Below the pieces are notes generated by a model. That model saw only the letters and a program-made list of their open reading frames with translations, was not told the DNA's origin and made no database searches. From the NCBI GenBank assembly GCA_031316115.1, contig JALDRC010000004.1, positions 186,001-250,000 on the forward strand: a stretch of 64,000 nucleotides of DNA, given 5' to 3'. The stretch comes from Nitrososphaeraceae archaeon. GTDB taxonomy: Archaea; Thermoproteota; Nitrososphaeria; Nitrososphaerales; Nitrososphaeraceae. This document shows positions 30,572 to 38,929 of the stretch, one piece after another (position 1 is the stretch's first letter; each line of letters begins with the position of its first letter). The translations under genes were made by a program, and so were the position numbers.

Positions 30572-31834
30572 TCAGATAATCATAGCACTTCAAATATTTT
30601 CTATTCTTATTCTTTATTTCTTAAATTATCAAAAAACCTCTAATTTTTTTAGTAGATTGTATTAATGTTTTTCATATCTGAAGTTTAATTTTTGAATTCC
30701 TGTTTGGTTAAAAAGCAAGTCATTTTTCAAATCATATCTTCTTGTTTTGTGATTTAGATCTAGTTTCTGTAATGAATTACTTTTATCCAGTCCTTCTGCT
30801 AACCTAGAATTGGATTCCTGGTACTATATTTTTTGATGTAAATAATGTATTGAAAGTCCAAAAACAAATACATCATAACAAGGATTGAAACTGAATATTA
30901 AATTCACCTATGCCGTATTACCCAAATTTAAAAACAAACAAAGTCTATAAAACTTTGAATATTTTATTTTATATTTGAATTTGTTTAATCTTTTTATTTT
31001 TTATAATACACCCATTAAAATTATGCCTGGAATAAATACTGGAGATCAGCCCGGAGAGTGGGATTCGAACCCTTATCCATCAAATGTGGGTTCCACCTTC
31101 TAATATTAAATAATTTGGGTTTTTAAAAATTAAAACATCTACTATACTTGATTTTAAATGATATTTATTGACTATATATTGCTAACTTCAAATAGTTATT
31201 TCTTTTTTGTTGTTGTTTTTGATTACAGGATATTATTAGTAAGGCTCAAACCTGTTTTTATCAAATATTGTTATACTAGGCAAAAAATCAAATACATGAC
31301 TTTAAGGGACAAAGAAAGTCTACAAAATGCAGAGAACTATTATCATATTTGCTAATATCTAAAATTAAAAAATGTTTCCAGTCTAACAAAAATATGATTT
31401 TTTTGTTTAGTAAAAAATATTTTTTTACCTTATTCAGTTAACAATAAACTAAGACATATTAAACAAAGACTAGATGAAACGTGATTACAGTCTCGATAAT
31501 GATAGTTAGTTATAGTTAGATCTTGAAATATTATATTGGATTCTCAGGATGAAGTTATGATTCTTGAAAAGGACCGTTCTATTCTGAACATCTAGATAAA
31601 AAATACCAGTTATCATATCATTCCAGGATCTTCAAATTTGTCGAGATAGATTCTATTCTACACAATTGCTTCAACTTTTATGGTCCAGAATTGGTCGAGA
31701 AGAACACAAGATAACTTGATTTGCTATGAAATTTCCCGTTTACTACCTATTCACCTAATATATTGGATTTTTACTTTTTACTCTCATGTGTGTTTATATT
31801 CTACTTCTTCCGAATATAGGATTGATAAAATAAT
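30572..31834. other. Non-coding stretch carrying a tRNA 3'-end fragment
   Basis: About 1.26 kb. The only distinct item is the tRNA-like fragment at 31049-31090. Open frames at 31158-31355 and 31680-31925 (+) are AT-rich or overlap the next gene in another frame, and are not supported. Confidence 0.4.
31049..31090 (-). repeat. tRNA 3'-end fragment (possible old att site)
   Basis: On the minus strand it reads GGGTTCGAATCCCACTCTCC followed by GGGCT, a complete T-arm and acceptor 3' half. No partner 5' half lies upstream. It agrees with the tRNA-Ser 3' end at 38844-38868 in 23 of 25 positions. It is a diverged third copy of that end. Confidence 0.6.
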
Positions 31835-32837: not shown

Positions 32838-32862
32838 GCGCGGGGAGTGGGATTCGAACCCA
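32838..32862 (-). repeat. Left boundary repeat of the island (tRNA-Ser 3' end copy)
   Basis: 25 bases identical to 38845-38869, which is the 3' end of the intact tRNA-Ser(GCU) gene plus one base. On the minus strand it starts TGGGTTCGAATCCCAC and ends CCCCGCGC. No 5' half of the tRNA is present here. This is what an integrase leaves when an element enters a tRNA 3' end: the intact gene at one side, the displaced 3' fragment at the other. Confidence 0.75.
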
Positions 32863-33395
32863 TAAGGTATACTTGGGCCTATTCTGAATTTGTCTCCAGT
32901 TCTAAAAGTCTCTATTTTTCTCGCTATTGGGTTGTCTTTTGCATTGTAAGGTCTTGGCTTGTAGGTTAGTATTTCCCTTTCAATAATTCTTGGCTATCTT
33001 TAATGCTTGTAAAATCGAATGACATGTTTCTCCCATATAGATTGGAATATCTTCATGCAAAAATGAAATATAGTCAGTATGATCAGAATGCATATGAGAA
33101 AGCAAGATTCCATCAATCTCTGGTCTCTCGGTTTTACGACCGGCTAGATGCATCAAATCATCCCGATATACCCCAGAAATATCAGGAGCTAATCCCATCG
33201 TAATAAAATCCATTATACCATTTGAAATTCTGGGATTAATGAATTCCTCAAAAAATTTGTCTTTTCTACTAAAGCTTTTTCCAAAATCCAAGAAAATACT
33301 AGTATCTTTGTCCTCAAGAAGGATTTTGTTACCCCCAATTTCGTTAACTCCACCAAAAAAGTAATGCTAGTTTTTGAGTTATTAGTAGTTCGCAA
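32863..33395 (-). pseudogene. Metallo-beta-lactamase-fold (RNase J-like) gene relic, cut at the boundary repeat
   Basis: Joined over frames it reads SKTSITF, GGVNEIGGNKILLEDKD, FLDFGKSFSRKDKFFEEF, then LSHMHSDHTDY (the HxHxDH zinc motif), MGETCHSILQALKIAKN, IIEREILTYKPRPYNAKDNP, and ARKIETFRTGDKFRIGPSIP. Two frameshifts (near 33355 and 32990) break it. The sequence stops being MBL-like exactly where the tRNA fragment begins at 32862, so the C-terminal half was lost at the integration junction. MBL-fold proteins do occur next to prokaryotic E1-E2-JAB genes, but this copy is dead. Confidence 0.72.
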
Positions 33396-33519
33396 ATAAA
33401 GTAGGTTTAATCTACCTGTTTATTTCTTTTTAGTTCTCATTATGTGATTTTCTTGTTATTAATAAATATAGATATGAGAAAACTAAAAATAGGAATTTAT
33501 ATCTTCAGAAATTATCGCA
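33396..33519. other. Spacer between MBL relic and CRISPR remnant
   Basis: 124 AT-rich bases. It could contain the CRISPR leader or the old MBL promoter. No box is clear. Confidence 0.3.
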
Positions 33520-33753
33520 ATTTTGATCCTATATTAGGCAGATTCAAAGTTGAATCTTTTCAGAGTATTTCAACTGAGTAACCTTAGTTTCAATCCTATA
33601 TTAGTCAGATTCAAAGCTTTTGAACTTTTTTAGAGTATTTGAGTACGATAACCTTAGTTTCAATCCTATATTAGGCAGATTCAAAGCCATTGTTTGTATC
33701 AACAAATATCCTAATCTAATACAGTTTCAATTCCATATTAGTCAGATTCAAAG
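33520..33753 (+). CRISPR. Four-repeat CRISPR remnant without cas genes
   Basis: Four 30-base repeats at 33520-33549, 33587-33616, 33657-33686 and 33724-33753. The typical start is GTTTCAATCCTATATTAGTC and the end AGATTCAAAG, a pattern close to archaeal I-A/I-B/III repeats. Copies differ at one to four positions (repeat 1 most, repeat 4 at two). Spacers are 37, 40 and 37 bases. Spacers 1 and 2 are similar to each other (both contain AGAGTATTT and end TAACCTTA), so one unit was probably duplicated. No cas gene lies in the window; the array looks inactive. Confidence 0.72.
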
Positions 33754-34249
33754 CCAATCTTGAAGATATTTTTGAAAAGGAAAGAGATTCAAATCTTTAT
33801 GTGAATGTCTCTACAGGAAGTAAAATTGTTTCAATTGTAGGAATGCTCTCATGCATGATCTGGCGTGCAATTCCCTACTATGTCCATTTGGCTTACAAAA
33901 CGAGTGATAAATTAGATACCAACCATAATTTTAAAGATGAAACTGTTTCAGATATAATAGACATACCAGTCTACAAGATAACAAGTCCTAAGATAGACTC
34001 CCTCAAAATTCTTGATATATTGTTGAAAAATAATGGGAAGGTAAAGAAAAAGAAGCTGATCGAACAACTGGAAGAAGAAAGACTTATGATAGTCTATCGC
34101 AAGCAGCCAAACACAGTAGACTAAAGGCACTTTTAAATCCCCTTATAAATACAGAGGATAATCCTCTCGTTAAAGTTGATTATTTGGGTAGACAGAGCAA
34201 CGTAATTCTTACCGAACAAGGAAGAAATACTTTAAGGATTTTTGGCTAA
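33754..34249 (+). pseudogene. CARF / winged-helix regulator (Csa3- or DUF6293-like), truncated and frameshifted
   Basis: Protein-like sequence starts directly after the last CRISPR repeat: ANLEDIFEKERDSNLYVNVS, then TGSKIVSIVGMLSCMIW (the nucleotide-binding turn of CARF domains), PYYVHLAYKT and IDIPVYKITSPKIDSLKILD. A winged helix follows, first as VKKKKLIEQLEE and then after a +1 shift as SLSQAAKHSRLKALLNPLIN and VILTEQGRNTLRIFG. The N-terminal part (about 90 residues) is missing. CARF regulators normally sense cyclic oligoadenylates in CRISPR systems. With a missing start and a shift near 34085 it is a pseudogene. Confidence 0.68.
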
Positions 34250-34976: not shown

Positions 34977-35208
34977 GTATTTAATTAATTTAAAAAGATC
35001 TATTTTGTATGTAGAATCTAGAGCTATTTGAGCTCTTTTCTTCCAATGCTCTAGCAGTTTTTTTTCTATTGTATATATCTTGATTCATTTTACTCTTTGG
35101 CTCAAGATTATTTACGTGTCGGTTGTAGTTGAAATAGCATCCAGAGTAGTTTGAATCATATTTTATGTTTTTGTCGTCATATTTTGGACTTCGAGCTGAG
35201 GGTTCAAT

Positions 35209-35580: not shown

Positions 35581-36051
35581 TTATGTAGCTTCAGGTTGTG
35601 GTTCTTGATATTCTCCCCAACCCCAGATTCCTCTCTGTTTCCATTTCATATAAGCAAATATCCAAGACTTTATCATTAATCCTACGTCGTATGAGGTATA
35701 GTCAGTTGACCAATCTTCATCAGGTTTTAGATAACATATAGTACTGTCTATGAACATATGGGGGGTTTGTGTTGGATCAAGGTAAGGTTCTATTAAATGT
35801 ACTTTAGGAGGAGACAAAGGATAATCCTGTACATACTCTATTAGAAAAGTAAAGTATGTTTTTTGATAGCTTCCTTCAATTTGAAGTTGGGTTACAGGTA
35901 GTTCAAGTACTAATCCAATATTACCATTATCCATCATATGAAATTTCCATGCACTATTCAATTTGAATGCTCCCTCTATCTCATTCGCTTCATATTGTAT
36001 ACCCCTAGTGCCGTTTCCTAATACATCAAGTGATTCTTCCAAGTTAATCAA
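35581..36051 (-). CDS. E2-like ubiquitin-conjugating-fold protein
   Basis: 156 residues from TTG at 36051, which overlaps the E1 stop by 8 bases; a frame from 36198 is open but lies inside the E1 gene. UBC-fold features: AWKFHMMDNGNIGLVLELPV strands, FTFLIEYVQDYPLSPPKVHL (the Tyr-Pro-x-x-x-P-P of E2s), then the probable catalytic Cys106 in STICYLKPDEDW, and the C-terminal WIFAYMKWKQRGIWGWGE. The W-x-x-Y-x-x-W...G-x-W pattern after the Cys is that of bacterial E2s found with ThiF-type E1 and JAB, including CBASS Cap2-like and BIL E2s. It should accept a modifier from the E1 and pass it to a target. Confidence 0.78.
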   Translation of the reverse strand: MINLEESLDVLGNGTRGIQYEANEIEGAFKLNSAWKFHMMDNGNIGLVLELPVTQLQIEGSYQKTYFTFLIEYVQDYPLSPPKVHLIEPYLDPTQTPHMFIDSTICYLKPDEDWSTDYTSYDVGLMIKSWIFAYMKWKQRGIWGWGEYQEPQPEAT

Positions 36052-37300
36052 CTTTTGAAATGATTTGTGAACATATTTTGCAGTCAGGTATTTTTTGTAA
36101 TATACGGTCTTCCTGATATAAAACAAACGTTTCAGCTTTACTATTTGGTAAGTTCTTATTAAACCAATAATAAATATCAGCTTTGAAAGATTGGTCAATA
36201 TCCTTTTCTCCTAATAAAGTACTTAAAATAAATTTTACCGTTGGTAATGTTATGAGATCAATATCTATTCCAAGTCCTGGTTGTGTCAACATGTCCTTTA
36301 CATCTCTTCCATAATTTTGAATGTAATTTTTATCTATTATTTGTGGTTTTTGAAATAGTGTATCATCCCCATACTTCTTATACATACATCTATAGCATAT
36401 AGATTTTTTACGTGGGTCAATCCTTATCATTATTCCTCCAATAATTTTTTCAAAGGCACCTGCAAATATAATTGGTAGATTTCTTTTGTAACCAAATTCA
36501 TTAATAGTTTCGTTCATGATATTATCTCCTGTAGCTGAAACTATAAGATCAACTTTAGACAATAAAGAATCAAAGAAGTTTTCTATTTTTTTATTTTCTC
36601 TAGAAAAAGGTTTTTCAACTGTAGTAATCTCAATTGTAGGAACTCTTTCTAGAATATGATCTTTAACTGCTAATGTTTTATATCTTCCAACATCTTGTAA
36701 GGAACAAATATGTCTAACTATGTTATGATCCATTAGAACATCACCGTCTATCAGCGTTAATTTTCCTATACCGCTCTTAGCTAGATGTAATGCTATTAAT
36801 GATCCACCAGAACCTAAACCTATTATAGCAACATTTTTTTTATTAATTATTCCTAATGGATAATCGGGCGTGTCAATTCTAATATATAGATTAGAAAAGT
36901 CTTGTATAATAACAAAAATTTCGTATATGTTGTTGCTAATATCTTTGACAAAATTTTTTAAAGATCTTTCTTCTTTTAATTCTTTTATAGATATTTCAAA
37001 TTGTGGAATATTTGATATATTAAAAATTAAATTTGACTTTGTGAGTATAATATTTCCTAAATTAGGTAATTGATATTGTGTTTTGTTATTATTGCTGATG
37101 GTGATAGAATTAATATTTCGTATTTGATAGGTTGATTCATCAATGATGGAACCAGTAACAAAGAATACGGATCTTTCATTGTTTTGAAATTTCTTGTCTA
37201 GTAAAATTTGTTTTACTTCTGGAAATATTACAATAAATACTGTTTTTATTTTTGTTCTATCTCTAGTCAATATAAATTTATGGTTTTCCATATTTGACAT
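36044..37300 (-). CDS. E1-like ThiF/MoeB-family adenylating enzyme
   Basis: 418 residues. Residues 1-150 are an N-terminal domain without clear homology. Residues 155-350 are the Rossmann-type adenylation domain: IIGLGSGGSLIALHLAKSGI (nucleotide loop 161-167), LIDGDVLMDHNIVRH with Asp185, Asp187, Asn193 and Arg196, then SATGDN with Asp259, and TQPGLGIDIDLIT. Two CxxC pairs, C302/C305 and C407/C410, form a likely structural zinc. Apart from C199 there is no other Cys, so the transthiolation Cys of classic E1s is not obvious. It overlaps the JAB gene by 23 bases and the E2 by 8. Role: activation of a modifier C-terminus with ATP. Confidence 0.85.
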   Translation of the reverse strand: MSNMENHKFILTRDRTKIKTVFIVIFPEVKQILLDKKFQNNERSVFFVTGSIIDESTYQIRNINSITISNNNKTQYQLPNLGNIILTKSNLIFNISNIPQFEISIKELKEERSLKNFVKDISNNIYEIFVIIQDFSNLYIRIDTPDYPLGIINKKNVAIIGLGSGGSLIALHLAKSGIGKLTLIDGDVLMDHNIVRHICSLQDVGRYKTLAVKDHILERVPTIEITTVEKPFSRENKKIENFFDSLLSKVDLIVSATGDNIMNETINEFGYKRNLPIIFAGAFEKIIGGIMIRIDPRKKSICYRCMYKKYGDDTLFQKPQIIDKNYIQNYGRDVKDMLTQPGLGIDIDLITLPTVKFILSTLLGEKDIDQSFKADIYYWFNKNLPNSKAETFVLYQEDRILQKIPDCKICSQIISKVD

Positions 37301-38276
37301 TTTTAATTTTTTTTCCCTGTGAATTCAAATTAAATACAAAAAGAGTTTTTAAAGTTGTAAATACTCTTTTTATTACACTTTTTAAGTTGTCATTTTTGGT
37401 ATTATTTTCTAAATGTGAAGATAGTAATTCAATATAGTGTGGTGATTTATCTAACACGTTTTGTATTTTTGGTAATATTTCAACTTTATTAAAAAAAATA
37501 TCTGAAAATGAAATTTCTTCCAATATCTTTGAATGTTTATAGTCTAAAGTAACTCCAATACTAATCTTATCAGTAAAAGATAACTTAATATTTGGAAAAT
37601 TAATAAATATAGAATATATAAATTTGTTATGTGAAATAGCTTCATAATCTAAACGATCATATCTTTCCTCATAAGTTAATTTATAATTAGGTGATTTATT
37701 GGGTTGTAAACAGGTAAATTTTTTACCAGTATGATCTTCTATCTTTCTTGATAGGTTTTCAATGTAATTAGTAATGTTTATTTTTTGACCTTTTAAAATT
37801 TTATCTAATTCGTGTATGTTTATTATTTTCTGAATCTCAAGATCTTTTTTGATAAATTCATCTTTCTCAAAATAATAATTCGTTGCTATTAGGTTATAAT
37901 TATTATTACAAAAATCTATGATTAAGGATAAATAATTTCGTTTATGACTATTCTGTATAAGAAATAACTCTGCTTGTTTATCATCACCATTACTTGGTCC
38001 TCCGTATCCTAAATGTTTATGCCAATTTCCTAGATAAGCAAGATTATTTTTTTCCATTTGTTTGGTAATATTTATTGCCAAGTCCTTATCCATTTCAAAA
38101 TAGACTTCTGTTCTCTTTGCATTAGTTGAAACGTGTATTATATTTAATATTATGATACATTCTACTACGGTCTTACCGAAAAGTAATCCACCTGTTTCGA
38201 CTTTTTCGTGTCTGTTACTTTCATTAACTATACTATTAATTGCATCTTCTGTTATGATTAATTTTTTATGTACCAT
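37278..38276 (-). CDS. JAMM/JAB-family isopeptidase-like protein with a long C-terminal part
   Basis: 332 residues. The N-terminal 140 form a JAB domain with a complete JAMM zinc site: Glu27 in VETGGLLFG, His86 and His88 in WHKHLGYGGPSNGDD, Ser95 and Asp98. Such enzymes cut isopeptide bonds or trim modifier precursors. The C-terminal 190 residues have no recognised family; they are Lys/Asn-rich with YKLTYEERYDRLDYEAI and NFPNIKLSFTDKISIG, possibly a modifier- or target-binding domain. The start ATG at 38276 overlaps the end of the small upstream gene by 11 bases. It has no Rpn11 regulatory partner here, so it probably acts with the next two genes. Confidence 0.85.
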   Translation of the reverse strand: MVHKKLIITEDAINSIVNESNRHEKVETGGLLFGKTVVECIIILNIIHVSTNAKRTEVYFEMDKDLAINITKQMEKNNLAYLGNWHKHLGYGGPSNGDDKQAELFLIQNSHKRNYLSLIIDFCNNNYNLIATNYYFEKDEFIKKDLEIQKIINIHELDKILKGQKINITNYIENLSRKIEDHTGKKFTCLQPNKSPNYKLTYEERYDRLDYEAISHNKFIYSIFINFPNIKLSFTDKISIGVTLDYKHSKILEEISFSDIFFNKVEILPKIQNVLDKSPHYIELLSSHLENNTKNDNLKSVIKRVFTTLKTLFVFNLNSQGKKIKNVKYGKP

Positions 38277-38448
38277 TGTAAAAGTGTTTGATATTAGGAA
38301 TAGTTATCTTTCCAGTTTCTACATCAACCATATTTTCTTCTCCTCTTTTTTTAAGAATTACCTCTGCAGCTTTATTTTTTATCTCATCTATACCTTCAAA
38401 GACTGATTTTAAATCTCTAGGCATTATAAACATATATATGAATTCCAT
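38266..38448 (-). CDS. Small first protein of the E1-E2-JAB operon
   Basis: 60 residues from ATG 38448, or 52 from ATG 38424, which begins MPRDLKSVFEGIDEIKNKAA. It is helical at first, then KKRGEENMVDVETGKITIPN and an end at HFYNGT. It is too short for a full ubiquitin-like fold and has no Gly-Gly tail. Still, it opens the operon in the place where bacterial systems encode the modifier, and it overlaps the JAB start. It could be a miniature modifier processed near its Gly, a target, or a regulator. This is an open question. Confidence 0.6.
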   Translation of the reverse strand: MEFIYMFIMPRDLKSVFEGIDEIKNKAAEVILKKRGEENMVDVETGKITIPNIKHFYNGT

Positions 38449-38494
38449 ATATTTATCATTTTTCTACTACTTTATTAAAAAAATTAATCACAAA

Positions 38495-38844: not shown

Positions 38845-38869
38845 GCGCGGGGAGTGGGATTCGAACCCA
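38845..38869 (-). repeat. Right boundary repeat of the island (within tRNA-Ser)
   Basis: The last 24 bases of the tRNA-Ser gene plus one flanking base. It is an exact 25-base direct repeat of 32838-32862. The two copies frame about 6.0 kb that includes the E1-E2-JAB operon. Confidence 0.75.
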
Positions 38870-38929
38870 CGAGTTCTTACGAACATGGGATTAGCAATCC
38901 CACGCCCTACCAGGCTAGGCGACCCCCGC
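38846..38929 (-). tRNA. tRNA-Ser (anticodon GCU)
   Basis: 84 bases. The acceptor stem GCGGGGG pairs with TCCCCGC, with discriminator G. The D arm has TCGCCTAGCCTGGTAGGGC. The anticodon arm reads GGGATTGCTAATCCC with anticodon GCU, which reads AGC/AGU. The long variable arm pairs GTTC with GAAC around GTAA, as expected for a serine tRNA. The T arm is GTGGGTTCGAATCCCAC. No intron and no encoded CCA. Its 3' end is repeated at 32838-32862. Confidence 0.93.

Follow-up and report, generated by a model that had tools for sequence, protein, structure and literature searches.

Bacterial Bub operons encode a beta-grasp ubiquitin-like protein (Ubl), BubA, together with a fusion of JAB and E1 domains. 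Bil operons likewise encode a beta-grasp Ubl (PMC11354881), and in the ubiquitin cluster of Caldiarchaeum subterraneum a ubiquitin homologue is accompanied by a RING E3 and by an E1 that contains a Cys domain (PMC11354881). In type II cyclic oligonucleotide-based anti-phage signaling systems (CBASS), it is the cyclase itself, without a beta-grasp fold or GG, that is the conjugated partner, and substrates of the Cap2 enzyme follow a Gly/Ala C-terminus rule (PMC10097602). As such, there is precedent for a conjugated partner that is not a Ubl. Considered here is a four-gene operon of E1-, E2- and JAMM-encoding sequences and a small open reading frame (ORF), found in a 64,000-nt window of a Nitrososphaeraceae archaeon genome (GCA_031316115.1; contig JALDRC010000004.1, positions 186,001-250,000, forward strand).

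The operon runs along the minus strand from 38424 to 35581 and consists of four co-linear ORFs encoding, in order, a small protein, a JAMM/JAB isopeptidase, a ThiF/E1-like enzyme and an E2 (Table 1). On balance, it is probably a mobile cassette for reversible protein conjugation, of the Cap2/Cap3 kind known from bacterial type II CBASS and metallo-beta-lactamase (MBL) operons, here split into separate genes and without a cyclase or a beta-grasp Ubl; the protein families, motifs, co-linearity, selection and mobility involved are directly established. An earlier note, prepared from the window alone, had described four minus-strand ORFs that included a JAMM protein with a full metal site, a ThiF/E1-like enzyme and an E2 with a probable catalytic Cys, and each of these assignments is upheld by the relatives and profile matches given below. 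That note also listed ORF overlaps of 11, 23 and 8 bases. The first two, between the small protein and JAMM ORFs and between the JAMM and E1 ORFs, are correct. The third requires that the E2 ORF start at an upstream TTG (36051) not shared by the relatives and was rejected; the conserved start is instead the TTG at 36042, one base past the E1 stop codon, an arrangement also seen in two related loci (L003 and L004). Similarly, the small protein was given as 52-60 residues long, and while the ORF is real, the 52-residue version beginning with MPR is the most likely product, this being the only start common to all four relatives.

This four-gene set recurs with unchanged order in four Nitrososphaeraceae genomes from two genera, with a high-scoring JAB being detected in four of 70 genomes of the family. 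Apart from the window, the operon is present in a Nitrososphaerales metagenome-assembled genome of the same genus (L003), in a pair of same-genus loci (L047 and L004) that share an identical 124-bp contig end and probably belong to one genome, and in a member of another genus (L049/L048, on contigs overlapping by 345 bp), where identity is 51% for the JAB protein, 52% for the E1, 59% for the E2 and 35% for the small protein. Across all four genes, the ratio of nonsynonymous to synonymous substitution rates (dN/dS) is 0.09-0.39; all four are intact, and in both genera they evolve under purifying selection. A scan of genome contigs for relatives returned only L003 and L004, and no E2 relatives beyond the same genus were detected in samples of 400 genomes of the class and 300 of the phylum, where weak E2 matches were partial and not credible. 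Viral contigs contained no relatives recognized by E1, E2 or JAB profiles, and phage records yielded only distant ThiF matches.

The JAMM protein comprises a JAB domain, spanning approximately residues 1-140, and a variable C-terminal extension. It matches the Pfam Prok-JAB family above cut-off (E=2.9e-7), the PADLOC CBASS JAB model (E=1.2e-14) and the NCBIfam 6A-MBL cap2_3 model (E=8.3e-11), the last at 41 bits, far below the 320-bit cut-off. The complete metal site (E27, H86, H88, S95 and D98) is invariant in the four relatives.

In the E1, a ThiF domain (residues 152-318; Pfam ThiF E=1.2e-27) carries conserved residues, namely GxGxxG (161-166), D185, R196, K208, D259 and, within and beyond the domain, CxxC pairs at 302/305 and 410/413, with roles, including ATP binding, that we take to be those of E1 enzymes in general. 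The PADLOC CBASS E1-E2 model is matched with E=3.9e-32, and the best match among NCBIfam defence models is again 6A-MBL cap2_3 (E=4.7e-21), at 75 bits and so far short of the same cut-off. Ahead of the ThiF domain is an N-terminal domain of some 150 residues to which the matches assign no family. The idea that this domain is a degenerate JAB came from its secondary structure and from a match to BubCD, 27th in the fold search (root-mean-square deviation 20.7), and was rejected when profile comparison with active JABs gave a probability of at most 1%. An AlphaFold model of the E1 is weak (pLDDT 49.7), with fold matches to UBA5, ThiF, PaaA and Cap2 that mainly cover the ThiF domain; enzymes of the MccB/PaaA type have a peptide-clamp domain at the N-terminus. 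The top sequence matches in the PDB are PaaA (E=3e-12) and MccB (E=4e-11). Their rank, their presence among the fold matches and the position of a short peptide gene ahead of the enzyme genes would suit a peptide-modification pathway, in which the E1 would adenylate the small peptide, as MccB does with MccA and PaaA with PaaP, and the JAMM protein would act as leader protease. We consider this improbable, since ThiF, MoeB and Cap2 score nearly as high, an E2 with an invariant Cys would have no role there, no exporter, immunity or tailoring genes are found in the four loci, and the small peptide is mostly conserved rather than divided into leader and core.

A maximum likelihood tree built from the catalytic domains of 23 E1s (153 columns; LG+G4) separated archaeal MoeB/ThiF proteins, the host genome's own included, from a group holding the operon E1s, CBASS/MBL E1s and Nitrosopumilaceae JAB-E1 proteins (bootstrap 96), with branching within the latter group not being resolved. 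That the operon serves a housekeeping MoeB/ThiF sulfur-transfer pathway, as its ThiF-domain homology and the lack of a thioester Cys in its E1 could imply, is thus highly improbable; moreover, the distribution is patchy (four of the 70 family genomes), the E1 is accompanied by E2 and JAMM partners and the genome has a MoeB of its own. In this regard, the earlier note had named closest relatives confined to housekeeping pathways as grounds for dismissal, and the tree instead sets the operon E1s apart. The closest plasmid matches found with tblastn were a split CBASS-type locus of Bradyrhizobium (L062; E=1e-14) and an MBL locus of Mesorhizobium (L066; E=7e-12), and the nearest bacterial E1s belong to CBASS operons. 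Together with the absence of an SMODS match anywhere in the genome, this could point to a decayed or repurposed CBASS remnant, that is, Cap2/Cap3-like genes that outlived their cyclase and now regulate something else, with the small ORF being incidental. Such an origin for the present set is distinctly unlikely, given that the four genes are intact and under purifying selection in both genera, that each locus has a conserved version of the small ORF and that the four loci contain no remnant of a cyclase, nor indeed any CD-NTase ORF.

The Mesorhizobium sp. AR10 plasmid operon encodes, in order, a 57-residue ORF, an E2, a Phd-pseudo-E2, an E1, a JAB protein, an MBL and a patatin; in the pseudo-E2 (L066, 3350-3880), a Phd/YefM antitoxin domain is joined to an E2-like one that lacks the catalytic Cys. 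Nitrosopumilaceae operons in three genomes (L005, L008 and L030) share a single gene order of their own: an E2-like protein with a Cys, a JAB-E1 fusion with an intact JAMM motif and no crossover Cys in its E1, a Zn-finger/winged-helix protein weakly similar to RING/zinc-ribbon proteins and a small membrane protein. These were not accepted as orthologues, since a relationship is evident for the E1s and not clear for the E2-like protein.

The E2 bears the UBC signature with its catalytic Cys. The Pfam UQ_con family is matched at E=1.4e-5 to 3.5e-5, below the curated cut-off, and the PADLOC E2 model at E=6.3e-9. The best solved relative is UBE2W (E=1.9e-4), with C111 (161-residue numbering) falling on the catalytic Cys of that enzyme, which has HPH where others have HPN. 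Motifs YP..xPK and PH.[FY]..[TS][IL]CYL, the latter including the Cys, are invariant. YP...PK, PH.[FY], [IL]CYL and a W-rich tail are common to the operon E2 and bacterial E2s, among which PH...[IL]C is general.

The small protein, of 46-52 residues across the four relatives, is always encoded first in the operon and occurs in exactly those four of the 70 family genomes that carry the other genes. It begins with MPRxL and contains TIPxxKH[FY][FY] near the C-terminus, followed by two or three variable residues. Its dN/dS of 0.27-0.39 identifies the sequence as a protein-coding gene. Assignment to a known fold or family was rejected, as no Pfam, NCBIfam or PADLOC match and no convincing PDB match was obtained. 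The protein may be a tag, a target or a regulator. By virtue of its position and perfect co-occurrence, it is the natural candidate for the partner of the cascade, and, the remainder being granted, we choose it as such tentatively. A specific version of this proposal, namely that the protein, too short for a beta-grasp fold, is a Pup-like modifier of non-ubiquitin fold, with the E1 handing its acyl-adenylate straight to the E2 Cys, is doubtful.

In the proposed mechanism, the E1 would bind ATP and adenylate the C-terminal carboxylate of a partner polypeptide, as its conserved ATP-site residues suggest. The acyl group would then go straight to the catalytic Cys of the E2, because the E1 has no crossover cysteine, and from there be passed to amino groups of targets. 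Finally, the JAMM protein, with its complete metal site, could trim or remove the conjugate. The partner would most likely be the co-encoded small protein, occupying the position held by the CD-NTase in CBASS, or otherwise a host Ubl; the residues that follow the conserved aromatic pair of the small protein could be trimmed first.

Several observations weigh against this reading. Canonical Cap2 E1s, as encoded in the CBASS operons of Deinococcus and Priestia, carry GCGS at the crossover site, whereas the archaeal operon E1 has MLT-QPGLGID and no cysteine; the residue is also missing in the Mesorhizobium (SPGLAVD), Bradyrhizobium (EPGLSLD) and Nitrosopumilaceae (AQGMIAD) relatives. The E2 AlphaFold model is of low confidence (pLDDT 47.0), its best Foldseek matches being UEV/UBC domains with E values of at least 0.02; the weak models of E1 and E2 agree with the expected folds without proving them. 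The choice of partner is the weakest step. The small protein ends in T, S, S and L in the four relatives, and no similarity was detected to the 57-residue Mesorhizobium ORF, such that homology of the two was rejected. With Cap2, the cGAS substrate was no longer conjugated once its final residue was Ser, Val, Arg or Trp (PMC10097602). Since the C-termini observed here break the Gly/Ala rule, one must assume trimming, a different specificity or a different role for the small protein, such as target or adaptor. The last of these forms part of a further explanation, whereby a host-encoded MoaD/ThiS/SAMP-like protein of beta-grasp fold is conjugated in trans by the E1-E2-JAMM cascade, the small protein serving as target, adaptor or regulator. 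Indeed, the genome encodes three ThiS/MoaD-family domains (C16:202448, C1:491397 and C15:318016, the last fused in a MoeB ORF), an E1 with no catalytic Cys is reminiscent of MoeB, an adenylation-only enzyme, and the small protein lacks a Gly C-terminus. We nonetheless hold a host Ubl to be an unlikely partner, given that transfer of the cassette between genomes brings along the small protein and no Ubl, and that the E1 is placed with CBASS-type E1s and apart from MoeB. The host's own MoeB-like E1 (G000:C15:317443-318159) lies in a single 464-residue open frame with a ThiS/MoaD domain.

Table 1. Features of the operon and of the surrounding tRNA-Ser island (window coordinates)
Feature	Position	Strand	Basis or remark
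Small protein, 52 aa	38266..38424	-	ORF extendable to 38448 (60 aa); conserved start MPR
JAMM/JAB isopeptidase, 332 aa	37278..38276	-	Prok-JAB match; invariant metal-site residues
E1-like adenylating enzyme, 418 aa	36044..37300	-	ThiF match; motifs; E1 tree
E2 (UBC-like), 153 aa from conserved TTG	35581..36042	-	UQ_con; PADLOC E2; UBE2W alignment
Cassette, DNA homology with L003 operon (82% identity)	35590..38472	-	Pairwise DNA comparison
tRNA-Ser(GCT)	38845..38929	-	3' end points at operon; probable integration target
Exact 24-nt copy of tRNA-Ser 3' end, att-like repeat	32838..32861	-	About 6 kb from tRNA
Second copy of tRNA 3' end, two mismatches, older att-like repeat	31049..31072	-	

Comparison of the window with L003 at the DNA level revealed a homology block that extends from 48 bases before the conserved start of the small protein to the end of the E2 gene. 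In every pair of loci the flanks are unrelated, except for approximately 115 bases after the E2 gene in L003 and L004. As homology ends at the operon edges and the flanks differ, the unit changes places as a whole and behaves as a transferable cassette. Its site in the window is directly downstream of a tRNA-Ser(GCT) gene, the terminal 24-mer of which occurs at only two places genome-wide, namely in the tRNA gene and at 32838. Such repeats would be a trace typical of archaeal elements that integrate at tRNA genes; thaumarchaeal elements mostly use tRNA 3' ends (PMC6563490). A third 3'-end-like copy at 35200 is weak and perhaps derived from another tRNA. The copies at 31049, 32838 and 35200 suggest repeated integrations at tRNA-Ser, and no integrase was recognized.

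A CRISPR-like mini-array (33519-33761) lies between the tRNA gene and the exact copy of its 3' end, comprising four partly degenerate repeats, GTTTCAATCCTATATTAGTCAGATTCAAAG, spaced at 67-70; the same repeat sequence makes up a nine-repeat array at another site in the genome (G000:C14:311392-311961), which has no cas gene among the large neighboring ORFs examined. Immediately after the mini-array is a fragment of an HFX_2341/DUF6293 protein (CARF plus winged helix; 33801-34124, plus strand). A truncated ORF of 103 residues with an MBL fold (32980-33291, minus strand) is also found in the island, 2.3 kb downstream of the operon. It was rejected as a part of the system, being fragmentary and without a counterpart in those stretches of the other loci that were available; it is the only MBL sequence near the operon.

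The earlier note had proposed an acquired, possibly defensive conjugation system in a decayed mobile island. Acquisition and mobility agree with the cassette edges and the tRNA-Ser 3'-end repeats, and decay holds for the surroundings, the operon itself being intact. As to defence, CRISPR and CARF debris does share the tRNA island here, but the other three loci have no defence neighbors. An antiviral function is thus only inferred: with CRISPR debris at one of four loci and no effector gene seen, it is a guess.

The locus appears to place a Cap2/Cap3-like E1-E2-JAMM module of bacterial antiviral operons in ammonia-oxidising soil archaea, as a four-gene mobile unit, and adds data on the exchange of components between the conjugation systems of archaea and bacteria. 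Were the small protein conjugated, E1-E2 cascades would no longer be bound to a beta-grasp or CD-NTase partner, as the rule has it, and a minimal system for studying E2 thioester formation without an E1 cysteine would be at hand.

In terms of known systems, the cassette, from which genes for a beta-grasp modifier, a cyclase, an MBL and a RING protein are all absent, resembles Bil (BilABCD) and Bub in offering a dedicated E1, an E2-fold protein and a JAB-family protease in a compact operon. It differs from both in that no beta-grasp Ubl is encoded, the small protein being too short and without a Gly/Ala C-terminus, and in that JAB and E1 are separate; a Bil/Bub-like system, as brought up in the earlier note, is accordingly not supported. 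With the Caldiarchaeum subterraneum cluster, it shares archaeal E1, E2 and JAMM genes, although not the ubiquitin homologue, the RING protein or the E1 Cys domain. With 6A-MBL (Iyer row 6a; NCBIfam NF058523), the best NCBIfam match of both the E1 and the JAB protein, it has in common E2, E1 and JAB without a Ubl, yet as three separate genes rather than a triple fusion and with no MBL gene in the cassette. The Mesorhizobium operon also has separate E2, E1 and JAB genes, a short upstream ORF, an E1 with SPGLAVD for QPGLGID and no Cys, and an E2 with PHxY...ICYL, although it includes additional pseudo-E2, MBL and patatin genes and its small protein is not detectably homologous. As in type II CBASS, E1, E2 and JAMM domains are encoded in one operon without a beta-grasp Ubl, the E2 has the PH...[IL]C motif, the E1s group together and the JAMM metal site is of the full Cap3 type. 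Unlike type II CBASS, the cassette is archaeal, has no CD-NTase or effector, keeps E2 and E1 unfused and follows the order small protein-JAB-E1-E2, while the crossover Cys of canonical Cap2 is missing from its E1 and its candidate partner does not end in Gly/Ala. The CBASS link suggested earlier is supported in part, by the grouping of the E1 with Cap2-type E1s, but not by the missing cyclase, the unfused proteins or the crossover site. By its defining features, the cassette is not a CBASS, 6A-MBL, Bil, Bub or Caldiarchaeum system; that it works like a split Cap2/Cap3 module is the best reading.

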